Assembly: GCF_000948285.1 (NCBI RefSeq)
Contig: NZ_JYBP01000003.1
Coordinates: 124,001-188,000, forward strand
Source of the DNA: Geobacillus kaustophilus
GTDB lineage: Bacteria > Bacillota > Bacilli > Bacillales > Anoxybacillaceae
Length of the DNA stretch: 64,000 bases
Reading direction: 5' to 3'
This document shows positions 7,217 through 10,953 of the stretch, piece by piece. Under the pieces are notes generated by a model, which saw only the letters and a list, made by a program, of their open reading frames with translations, did no database searches and was not told where the DNA came from. Position 1 is the stretch's first letter; every line of letters begins with the position of its first letter. Made by a program: the position numbers and the translations under genes.

Positions 7217-7427
7217 GTGCTTCCGGCTGGAAGGGCAGGGCGGCGGGCCATCATCCAAGTAATCCCGTTCCGTCGCGACCAAAACGGCGGAAAGTGTCAG
7301 CGAATGGGAAATCGATCCATCCAAACAGCCCCGTTCGGTCAAGAGGCAGAGGAATGGCTGGCTGCCGCCGGCCTTTTCATGCGTCGGCGGCTTGCGCTCC
7401 CCGGGTCCGCTTGCGGGGGGAGGAGCG
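7217..7427. other. Gap between ytwF and the nprA region
   Basis: This 211-base part of a 340-base gap holds no gene I can support. A frame with codons such as EAEEWLAAAGLF is open across it but has no ribosome binding site or family match. It could be a decayed gene fragment. Confidence 0.3.
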
Positions 7428-7462
7428 AAAAAGCGTCCCAGCTTTTTGGGGCGCTTTTTCTA
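7428..7462 (+). terminator. Terminator upstream of nprA
   Basis: AGCGTCCCA pairs with TGGGGCGCT (one G-T pair) and is followed by TTTTTCTATTTTG; A-rich sequence precedes it. It would isolate nprA from read-through of the leuS-ytwF unit. Confidence 0.75.
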
Positions 7463-7508
7463 TTTTGTTTTAGTACCAAAGTGTGATGCAAGAAAAAAAA
7501 GGAGAGGA

Positions 7509-7526
7509 TATAATTTTCGGTAAAAT
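7509..7526 (+). promoter_or_regulatory. nprA promoter -10 overlapping a candidate CodY box
   Basis: TATAAT at 7509-7514 is the likely -10 of nprA; no good -35 is visible at 17 bases. Bases 7512-7526 read AATTTTCGGTAAAAT, 12 of 15 matches to the CodY consensus AATTTTCWGAAAATT. CodY is known to control nprR in the B. cereus group. This is inference from a motif match. Confidence 0.4.
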
Positions 7527-7556: not shown

Positions 7557-8831
7557 TTGAAACTCGGCGACCGCTTGAAATTCGCCCGCTTGATGAAAGG
7601 CCTGACCCAAGAAGAAACGGCTGAAGGCATTATTTCGGTTTCTTATTTATCGAAAATTGAGAACAACCAAGTCATCCCGAGCCAAGAGGTGCTCGAATGG
7701 CTGTTTCGGCGGCTGGACATCCGGCCCGGCGGAAATGAAACAACGCCTTCATGGTTCGAGTGGGTGATGTCGTGGTACAGGGCGATGATGAGCCGTGATG
7801 CGCCTGCCGCGCAGGAACTGTATGAAACGGTCAAAGAACGATGCGAGCGGTCCGGAGATGCCGAAGCCATGATTTATTTTCAGCTGATGCGAATCCGGTA
7901 TTGGCTGCTTCTTGGTGACAAAAAGGGGGCGGAAACGGCGGCGCAAAGCGTGCGGGACTGGTATGGGGCGTTGAGTGATGACATGCGCTACTATTATTGG
8001 AAATTTTTTGGTCTTTTATATTATTGCCAAGAAAAGTACGATGACGCCTTGCATTGTTATCAAAAGGCAGAACAGCTGCTGAAGGGAGAATGGAAAATGA
8101 GCGGGGAGGAGGCCGATTTGGCTTACTTGTCGGCCCTTGCTTCCAGCCGTCTGTGGAAATGGTTCCAATGCCTTCATTACGCCGAACGGGCCCTGGCGCT
8201 CAGCCAGGCGGAATACGACTTGCGAAGGAGCGCCGAATGCCATGTGCTGTTGGCGATTTGCTACCGGCGCTGCGGGGAGATCGACAAAGCAGTCGAACAT
8301 TGCCTGGCGGCGCAAAAAGCGGCGGGTATGGCGAATGATCGGCGCCTTCTTGGCATTGTCGAGCACAATCTCGGCCACTTGAAGGGGATGAAACGCCAAT
8401 ACCGCGAGGCGGTGCAACATTACGAGAACAGTTTGATCTATAAAGAGGACGCCCCGTTGGATGCGCGGCTCATTACGCTTTTGTCGCTCGTGCGCATGCA
8501 TTGTGAGGCCAAGCATTATCGCAAAGCGTGGATGATCGTCGAAGAAGGGTGGAAACAGCTCGAACAAGCCCCTAACGGAGCGGTGGAGCATTATGAGTAT
8601 TATTTGCATTTTTCCATTTACCGGCTGCTTTTGAGCGAAGAAGACGAACCGTTGGAGCGGCTGCTCAAACAGGAGGCGATTCCATACTTCCAGAAAAAGA
8701 AGGAATATGACGACGCTTCTTTGTACGCCGAATATTTGGCCGATTGTTATATGCGGAGGCGCCAGCACAAGCTGGCGGCCCAATATTACCAGTTAAGCTG
8801 CGCTCTCTTGCGGAAGAAAACCGGCGTTTGA
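7557..8831 (+). CDS. nprA: NprA/NprR-type activator (HTH + TPR, RRNPP family)
   Basis: A 424-residue transcription regulator. Residues 1-60 are an Xre-type helix-turn-helix (LKFARLMKGLTQEETAEGI...SYLSKIE). The rest is a string of TPR helices, for example DALHCYQKAEQLL and EAVQHYENSLIYKED. Length and layout match NprR (about 423 residues) and the NprA activator described upstream of the neutral protease gene of B. stearothermophilus. The start is TTG at 7557 with AAGGAGGAG nine bases upstream. It is followed after 16 bases by a small secreted-peptide gene and then by the protease gene, the layout of an RRNPP receptor, its signal and its target. In NprR the TPR domain binds the imported peptide; here that is inference. 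Confidence 0.88.
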   Translation: MKLGDRLKFARLMKGLTQEETAEGIISVSYLSKIENNQVIPSQEVLEWLFRRLDIRPGGNETTPSWFEWVMSWYRAMMSRDAPAAQELYETVKERCERSGDAEAMIYFQLMRIRYWLLLGDKKGAETAAQSVRDWYGALSDDMRYYYWKFFGLLYYCQEKYDDALHCYQKAEQLLKGEWKMSGEEADLAYLSALASSRLWKWFQCLHYAERALALSQAEYDLRRSAECHVLLAICYRRCGEIDKAVEHCLAAQKAAGMANDRRLLGIVEHNLGHLKGMKRQYREAVQHYENSLIYKEDAPLDARLITLLSLVRMHCEAKHYRKAWMIVEEGWKQLEQAPNGAVEHYEYYLHFSIYRLLLSEEDEPLERLLKQEAIPYFQKKKEYDDASLYAEYLADCYMRRRQHKLAAQYYQLSCALLRKKTGV

Positions 8832-8847
8832 AAGGAGGTGAAGCTAG

Positions 8848-8976
8848 GTGAAAAAGCGGGTCATTGTGATCGTCGCTCTCGCCGTCCTTGGTCTCGCTTC
8901 AGCCTTTGGCCAAGGCATCGGGGTGAAAGAAGCGGCTAAAGACGAACATCCGCCGCCGACGGTGATTGCTCGATAA
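8848..8976 (+). CDS. Putative NprX-like signalling peptide precursor (42 aa)
   Basis: A 42-codon frame starting GTG at 8848, with AAGGAGG nine bases upstream and the SD overlapping the nprA stop region. The product starts MKKR, has a hydrophobic run (VIVIVALAVLGLASAF) like a secretion signal, then a short polar tail KEAAKDEHPPPTVIAR. This is the architecture of Phr/NprX pro-peptides: signal sequence plus a C-terminal segment cut to a 5-8 residue pheromone. The tail segment PPPTVIA aligns in pattern with B. cereus NprX SKPDIVG (Pro at 3, then D/T, I/V, V/I, G/A). A strong terminator follows. It is too short for routine gene callers. The mature form is a guess. Confidence 0.75.
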   Translation: MKKRVIVIVALAVLGLASAFGQGIGVKEAAKDEHPPPTVIAR

Positions 8977-8979
8977 AAG

Positions 8980-9016
8980 GAGCGTCGGATAAGGCGGCCT
9001 TATCGCTCTTTTTCTC
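8980..9016 (+). terminator. Terminator after the nprA-peptide unit
   Basis: GAGCG-(TCGG bulge)-ATAAGG pairs with CCTTAT-CGCTC around a CGG loop, followed by TTTTTCTCTTCTT. It starts three bases after the peptide stop and ends the nprA-peptide operon. Confidence 0.85.
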
Positions 9017-9033
9017 TTCTTCAAACTGATTCG

Positions 9034-9079
9034 TCCCCTGCTTTCGTGACGATAGGCGAAAGCGGGGGGCGGTTTTTTG
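9034..9079 (+). terminator. Second hairpin with T-tract before nprM
   Basis: CCCCTGCTTTCG pairs with CGAAAGCGGGG (one bulge) and a run of six Ts follows at 9073-9078. Two terminators in tandem should keep nprM expression strictly dependent on its own promoter. Confidence 0.7.
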
Positions 9080-9210: not shown

Positions 9211-9249
9211 CGTATTCCGCCCGATCATTTTCCCAATACCGAATCAAAA

Positions 9250-9255: not shown

Positions 9256-9312
9256 GTAATAAAATTTTTATTAGAATAAATAATTTGAAAGTACAAGAAA
9301 GGGGTAAAGGGA

Positions 9313-10953
9313 ATGAACAGACGGGCGATGCTTGGTGCGATTGGGTTGGCGTTTGGATTGATGGCTTGGCCGCTCGGCGCTTCGGCGAAGGAAAGATCAA
9401 TGGTGTGGAACGAACAGTGGAAGACGCCATCGTTCGTTTCTGGTTCGCTGTTGACAGGCGAGGATGCTCCGGAAGAATTGGTTTACCGTTATCTTGATCA
9501 AGAGAAGAATACATTCCGACTTGGTGGACAAGCCCGCGAACGGCTGGGCTTGATTGGCAAACAAATGGATGAACTCGGCCATACGGTCATGCGTTTTGAA
9601 CAGCGCTATCACGGCATCCCCGTGTATGGCGCCGTGCTCGTTGCCCATGTCAACGATGGCGAATTGTCCTCTTTGTCGGGTACGCTCATTCCGGATTTGG
9701 ACAAGCGAGGGGTGAAAAAAGAAAAAACGATTGCCGTTCAAGAAGCGGAAGCCATCGCAGAACAAGATGTGATCGAGACGATCACGAAAGAACGCCCGAA
9801 GAAGGAAGACGGGAAACCGACGCGGCTGATCATTTATCCGAGCGGAGAGGAGGCGCGCCTTGCTTATGAGGTCAATGTCCGCTTTTTAACCCCTGTTCCG
9901 GGCAATTGGATGTATATCATCGATGCGGGAAGCGGCGCTGTATTGAATAAATGGAATCAAATGGATGCGGCCAAGCCGGGAACCGGTCCGACAATCGCCG
10001 GCACGTCGACCGTCGGCGTCGGCCGCGGTGTGTTGGGCGATCAAAAATATATTAACACCACCTACTCTTCATATTACGGCTATTACTATTTGCAGGACAA
10101 CACGCGCGGCAGCGGCATTTTTACGTACGATGGACGCAACCGCACGACGCTGCCTGGCAGCCTGTGGGCTGACATTGACAACCAATTTTTCGCCAGCTAT
10201 GACGCGGCGGCTGTGGACGCCCATTATTACGCCGGCGTCGTGTATGACTACTACAAAAATGTGCACGGCCGGCTGAGCTATGACGGCAGCAACGCCGCCA
10301 TCCGTTCGACCGTCCATTACGGACGCGGCTACAACAACGCGTTTTGGAACGGTTCGCAAATGGTGTACGGCGATGGAGACGGCCAGACGTTTTTGCCGTT
10401 TTCCGGAGGCATTGATGTCGTCGCTCATGAGTTGACCCACGCCGTGACCGATTATACCGCCGGGCTTGTTTACCAAAATGAATCCGGCGCCATCAATGAA
10501 GCGATGTCCGACATTTTCGGCACGCTCGTGGAGTTTTACGCCAACCGCAATCCGGACTGGGAGATCGGCGAAGACATTTACACGCCGGGCATTGCCGGCG
10601 ATGCGCTCCGCTCGATGTCCGATCCAGCGAAATACGGCGATCCGGATCATTACTCGAAACGATACATCGGCACACAAGATAACGGCGGCGTCCATACGAA
10701 CAGCGGCATCATCAATAAAGCGGCGTATTTGCTCAGCCAAGGGGGCGTCCATTACGGAGTAAGCGTCACCGGCATCGGCCGCGACAAAATGGGGAAAATT
10801 TTCTACCGGGCACTCGTCTACTATTTGACGCCGACCTCCAACTTCAGCCAGCTGCGCGCCGCCTGCGTGCAAGCGGCTGCTGACTTGTACGGGTCGGCGA
10901 GCCAAGAAGTGAATTCGGTGAAACAGGCGTTCAATGCCGTAGGAGTTTATTAA
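9313..10953 (+). CDS. nprM: Thermolysin-like neutral protease (bacillolysin, M4)
   Basis: A 546-residue secreted zinc metalloprotease: signal peptide ([19 protein letters not shown]...GASA), pro-region to about residue 227, mature enzyme from [10 protein letters not shown] (residue 228, 319 residues). The zinc site HELTH begins at residue 372, with the third ligand in GAINEAMSD. The calcium-site and S1' regions of thermolysin are present ([10 protein letters not shown]). It has the three-residue insertion SYYGYYYL that separates the stearothermophilus enzymes from thermolysin itself. The start has AAAGGGGTAAAGGGA upstream. NprA and the peptide gene lie just upstream, so it is the expected target of that switch. 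The symbol nprM, nprS or nprT varies by strain. Confidence 0.95.

Follow-up and report, generated by a model that had tools for sequence, protein, structure and literature searches.

Which residues of a short reading frame behind an NprR-type receptor gene would serve as the pheromone of that receptor is the question raised by the stretch of Geobacillus kaustophilus DNA analysed here (64,000 nucleotides in full, hereafter the window). The original prediction had placed the mature peptide at PPPTVIA, in the register of SKPDIVG of NprX (Pro at position 3, a polar residue at 4, aliphatic residues at 5 and 6). A neutral protease gene lies downstream of the short frame. Nishiya and Imanaka reportedly described NprA in 1990 as the activator of the Bacillus stearothermophilus neutral protease, and the window receptor is presumably the same gene, given the same genus and the same position before the protease. 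To our knowledge no peptide has been linked to NprA. The features that the argument needs are the following, with positions counted within the window.

7427-7460: terminator-like hairpin 5' of the receptor gene (consensus scan only)
7557..8831, + strand: RRNPP receptor of the NprA/NprR type, 424 aa, with N-terminal HTH, 3-helix bundle and TPR superhelix (Pfam, PDB match, AF2 model)
8268..8270, + strand: codon of receptor R238, predicted charge-inverted pheromone anchor, in the column of RapF Asp194 and the NprR Glu
8367..8369, + strand: codon of receptor N271, the RNPP backbone-binding Asn (RapF Asn227), from conservation
8832..8838, + strand: Shine-Dalgarno sequence AAGGAGG of the propeptide gene, kept in relatives
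8848..8976, + strand: pheromone propeptide gene, 42 aa, GTG start (translation, conservation)
8938..8961, + strand: predicted mature pheromone KDEHPPPT (motif, tandem-copy agreement, period-7 arrays, anchor charge)
8938-8958, + strand: heptamer KDEHPPP within the predicted pheromone
8950..8970, + strand: PPPTVIA of the original prediction; its last three residues are spacer in tandem arrays
8988-9004 and 9031-9072, + strand: terminator-like hairpins 3' of the propeptide gene (consensus scan only)
9227..9239, + strand: candidate receptor operator ATTTTCCCAATAC in the protease promoter (conservation, copy number per genome)
9260-9265: -10-like TAAAAT of the protease promoter
9313..10953, + strand: thermolysin-like neutral protease (M4), presumed target gene (Pfam Peptidase_M4, M4_C, FTP, PepSY)

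Receptor and propeptide appear to form a two-gene unit, framed on both sides by terminator-like hairpins found by consensus scan only. We put the probability at about 0.7 that this is a quorum-sensing unit in which an exported 42-aa propeptide yields KDEHPPP(T), which acts through the receptor on the neutral protease promoter. The most likely mature form predicted from the sequence is KDEHPPP(T), beginning four residues earlier than PPPTVIA and perhaps extended to V or I, and it would give the protease switch of an industrial thermophile genus a concrete candidate pheromone.

The propeptide and its conservation in Geobacillus

The frame at 8848-8976 (+ strand) starts 16 nt past the receptor stop, right behind AAGGAGG, and translates to VKKRVIVIVALAVLGLASAFGQGIGVKEAAKDEHPPPTVIAR followed by a stop. 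Its product has a basic N-terminus and then a hydrophobic core, a Sec-type arrangement, and the tail follows this secretion-like segment just as the original prediction had described; the propeptide would be exported by the Sec route. Scans of Pfam and NCBIfam returned no propeptide family for it. The receptor was found in 11 of 14 Geobacillus genomes, with an open frame in 10 of these 11, and in all 11 the propeptide adjoins the receptor and ends in the invariant tail KDEHPPPTVIA; its start codon is GTG or TTG across the Geobacillus relatives. The exception to the open receptor frame is G003 (L014/L015, G003:C35), where the receptor is split into two overlapping frames beside an intact propeptide, through either a frameshift or an assembly error.

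Comparison of codons among the 11 Geobacillus species gave no amino-acid change in residues 28-41 (0/14), yet 9 of these 14 codons are variable, and in residues 1-28 as many as 14 of 28 are changed (Fisher p = 0.001). The codons of I40 and A41 show silent changes as well, VIA being invariant in the 11 species. As judged from its codons, the tail is under purifying selection, and the pheromone reading is well supported because the propeptide is kept beside the receptor and residues 28-41 are unchanged despite silent codon variation. The earlier view of a receptor-linked NprR-type propeptide with the signal in its tail is thus borne out by conservation. The same holds for the suggestion that the terminal Arg could be trimmed, as the residue is dispensable in evolution: residue 42 is free in Geobacillus (R, Q or L), and among relatives the C-terminal residue is R, Q, L, E or absent. 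Conservation within Geobacillus is not enough to define where the mature peptide begins and ends; tails in other genera read KDQFPPPTVIVE, KDQLPPPTIIFEA and a duplicated AKDEHPPPTIIIAAKDEHPPATII.

The conserved element and the ends of the mature peptide

The receptor had matches in 295 of the 397 genomes of the order, in some of which only the HTH part or a paralogue was hit, and about 120 receptor/propeptide pairs were fetched for comparison. Relatives whose receptors are only about 27% identical still carry a propeptide of the same type. The element conserved across these pairs is A-x-[DE]-x-x-P-x-P, which corresponds to AKDEHPPP(T) in the window. This is a segment other than PPPTVIA, an outcome that the original prediction had itself named as one that would refute it. 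A de novo motif search run on 59 unaligned, non-redundant tails (receptors <70% identical) found A-x-[DE]-[DE]-[HEY]-P-x-P with a log-likelihood of 319 vs 112 +/- 5 in shuffled tails. The motif score was positive in 57 of the 59, the site in the window was AKDEHPPP, and information fell through the extension to T, V and I. As a separate observation, a 29-kb contig apart from the chromosome encodes a distantly related RRNPP receptor together with a propeptide that ends in SEQDYPNP (L016, G006:C2).

Propeptides with tandem copies help in locating the ends. Repeats were detected in many propeptides by motif-blind self-comparison, and longer arrays occur in frames after further receptors. When 23 tandem-repeat propeptides, of which related arrays are not independent, were aligned on the first motif Pro, the copies agreed at the columns of K31, D32, E33, H34, P35, P36 and P37 in 22, 23, 22, 23, 23, 19 and 21 of the 23 arrays. 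Agreement was seen at the T38 column in 14/23, at V39, I40 and A41 in 8, 3 and 1, and at A30 in 11. Head-to-tail repeats of exactly seven residues occur in L064 (HERFPDS) and L171 (HDKVPDS); these period-7 units equal KDEHPPP in the window and carry the acid at position 2, and the residue preceding the repeat unit is often Ala, as is A30 in the window. Four relatives have propeptides that stop at the P37 or T38 column and so lack positions 39-41 altogether: L157 (IDNGPNPT, at the T column), L108 (DDLLPPY) and L166 (HEDPPRP), both at the P37 column, and L073 (EEHPDPN). It is likely on these grounds that extracellular cuts after Ala30 and after P37 or T38 would release KDEHPPP(T), which would then be re-imported by an oligopeptide permease. 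In the propeptides of L031, L129, L142 and L160 the near-identical copies of the pheromone number at least six to eight, and the hydrophobic spacers between them frequently have Ala as their last residue.

The range 8938-8976, which had been given for PPPTVIA, is correct as that of the tail KDEHPPPTVIAR plus the stop, and PPPTVIA itself lies at 8950-8970. Neither a cut ahead of PPP nor a peptide that includes VIA finds support, as tandem copies match each other over K31-P37/T38 but differ at VIA.

A longer mature peptide of 9-11 aa, such as KDEHPPPTVI or DEHPPPTVIA, would combine the acidic anchor with an aliphatic end, and we regard it as unlikely, although it deserves to be kept in mind. A form KDEHPPPTVI(A) is conceivable because VIA too is invariant within Geobacillus, where purifying selection spans all of residues 28-41. 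In L020 the repeated unit is AKDEHPP[PA]TII, and NprX peptides of 7-9 aa are active (PMC4147580). Against such an extension, the C-terminal part differs between copies and between families, and several propeptides stop before it.

The receptor and the charge of its predicted anchor

The preferred peptide, KDEHPPP(T), also agrees with what can be read from the receptor. The receptor shares 97% identity with its G. jurassicus counterpart and matches HTH_3, TPR_12 and TPR_1 in Pfam, with RapH_N below threshold. Its best PDB sequence match is NprR 4GPK (profile E 3e-52), and the AF2 model (pLDDT 93) matches NprR 5dbk_B (VIA Z 34.3, 350 residues, rmsd 2.8) and the Rap fold too. Three hallmarks of RRNPP(A) receptors are present, namely the HTH with a TPR superhelix, the backbone-binding Asn and an adjacent small propeptide gene with a secretion-like sequence. 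The Asn, N271, is 98% conserved in the clade and is the same residue in NprR and in the Raps.

The column of R238, 33 residues before N271, holds Asp in six B. subtilis Raps and Glu in B. thuringiensis NprR. It has been shown that RapF Asp194 forms a salt bridge with the basic residue 2 of Phr and that Asp194Ala abolishes binding, and a salt bridge between the RapG Glu and the PhrG Lys has been published as well (PMC3601957). Among receptors with acidic pheromones, R or K occupies this column in 54 of 55 non-redundant ones and in 121 of 124 in all, counts that are not phylogenetically independent. In L022 and L023 the tails are without the acid, and the column holds Met and Phe. The exceptions despite acidic pheromones are L074 (Q), L171 (V) and L172 (I). 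The last two are related and have lost both anchors, N271 being replaced by D, and with their peptides HDKVPDS and DHDRVPDS a changed binding mode is possible.

Since the R/K anchor is paired with acidic pheromones, D32 would be part of the ligand; the simplest register, drawn from the charges, has K31 at position 1 and D32 at position 2. KDEHPPP(T) would be bound extended in the concave TPR groove, where Asp32 would pair with Arg238 and Asn271 would hold the peptide backbone. A shift by one residue is needed to put the acid at position 2 in the EAEHPDPT and SEPDHPKIV families. We are inclined to extend this pairing to a large NprR-like clade from many Bacillales families, in which a groove Arg or Lys would meet the acidic residue 2 of x-[DE]-x-x-P-x-P, the reverse of the Rap/NprR salt bridge, and the anchor of the receptor would predict the sign of the pheromone. 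Such a rule would allow pheromones to be read from receptor sequence across a broad NprR-like clade with propeptides that earlier descriptions call excessively divergent. When every receptor column was scanned for charge against the peptide residue x of HPxP, only weak, phylogeny-confounded signals resulted.

The system is close in architecture to NprR-NprX of the Bacillus cereus group (4GPK, 5DBK), with which it shares the HTH, the 3-helix bundle and the TPR architecture at the fold similarity given above, the order of receptor gene, small secreted propeptide and neutral protease gene, the RNPP Asn and the tetramer residue Y223. In contrast, the receptors are only about 21-22% identical, the anchor column is Arg in the window and Glu in NprR, and the window pheromone is predicted to be acidic (xDxxPxP), whereas SKPDIVG has Lys2. 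In the TPR-domain tree NprR falls outside the 63-row clade that holds the window receptor (support 91/78), although its placement on a long branch is unsure. The Spo0F-binding residues D107, Y118, E188 and Y223 of NprR correspond to D101, R112, E185 and Y220; three of the four are thus kept in the window, and they are variable in the clade. Genomes presumed to belong to the cereus group were searched and yielded no close NprR. With Rap-Phr (RapF-PhrF/PhrC, RapI, RapJ) the system shares the TPR fold, the conserved Asn and a side-chain anchor at peptide position 2 (PMC3601957), but the HTH of the window receptor is missing from the Raps, and the Rap Asp with Phr Arg2 stands against Arg with Asp2 here. 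The window system probably works like NprR-NprX and Rap-Phr, but with its anchor charge reversed it would not be of the NprX type. Surveys have already described NprR-like receptors from 21 genera as well as repeated propeptides (PMC9765709, PMC10075063, PMC5199041); in the passages searched they name no Geobacillus pheromone, xDxxPxP code or anchor charge inversion. A literature search on Geobacillus together with NprX or RRNPP returned nothing relevant.

For the clade as a whole the analogy to SKPDIVG is weak, and we consider PPPTVIA an improbable mature pheromone. The invariance of VIA in Geobacillus would suit it, and the endings HPKPDVTLV in L058 and HPRPDV in L053 resemble KPDIV, so that the Pro-polar-aliphatic register looks right; the conserved unit, however, begins earlier. 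A weak charge complementarity also links residue x of HPxP to the R126 column of NprR (Fisher p 0.009, uncorrected for phylogeny). However, VIA is not retained between the copies of tandem arrays, several relatives' propeptides end before it, the period-7 units begin four residues ahead of PPP, and the anchor R238 would be left without an acidic partner. Residues of NprR with a reported role in NprX binding or in the closed state are R126, Y165, W167, H201, N306, D309 and R343 (PMC4970707); at these positions the window receptor has G, E, Y, R, A, I and E and retains only the aromatic at W167.

Equally improbable is that the conserved DEH is a processing signal outside the ligand, with the ligand being the short part that follows. 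Residues preceding mature Phr peptides can matter for cleavage, but here almost nothing would be left as ligand in L040 (KIV), L073 (DPN), L108 (PPY), L157 (NPT) and L166 (PRP), and the charge flip at the anchor would go unexplained. A chance frame or a non-secreted leader without a signalling role can be practically dismissed, given the Shine-Dalgarno sequence directly upstream, the invariant tail after the receptor in all 11 genomes with its silent-only change, and the same type of gene beside distant receptors.

The protease and the candidate operator

In relatives the protease gene starts 318-1095 nt after the receptor, directly following receptor and propeptide. Upstream of it ATTTTCCCAATAC is identical in 12 of 12 aligned relatives, two other genera included. 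Each of 11 Geobacillus genomes has exactly one exact copy, which in 10 is located just upstream of the protease. G009, which is without receptor and protease, carries its single exact 13-bp copy elsewhere (L179, G009:C1:455117-455129). Like the NprR-NprX site that precedes nprA in B. thuringiensis (PMC4147580), the element overlaps with a -35 region, here the one expected for the -10-like TAAAAT. From its conservation and placement ATTTTCCCAATAC is a likely candidate for the receptor operator, and the receptor loaded with KDEHPPP(T) would activate the downstream protease promoter, probably at this site. In the receptor promoter, at about 7506-7521, TATAATTTTC[AG]GTAAA is kept in most relatives and has ATTTTC in common with the protease element, and with this shared element autoregulation of the receptor is possible.

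The fate of the genes in two other genomes bears on the protease as a target. In G036 (L017, G036:C120) the propeptide is frameshifted, its tail AKDQFPPPTAMVK standing in another frame, and the adjoining protease is a 39-aa remnant; we count this apparent joint decay in favour of the two-gene signalling reading. G004 retains receptor and propeptide, but its protease is only a fragment, so there may be targets other than the protease. The bond Thr38-Val39 (8959-8964), with a hydrophobic residue at P1', would suit a thermolysin-like protease, and it can be speculated that the target protease might trim its own inducer there.
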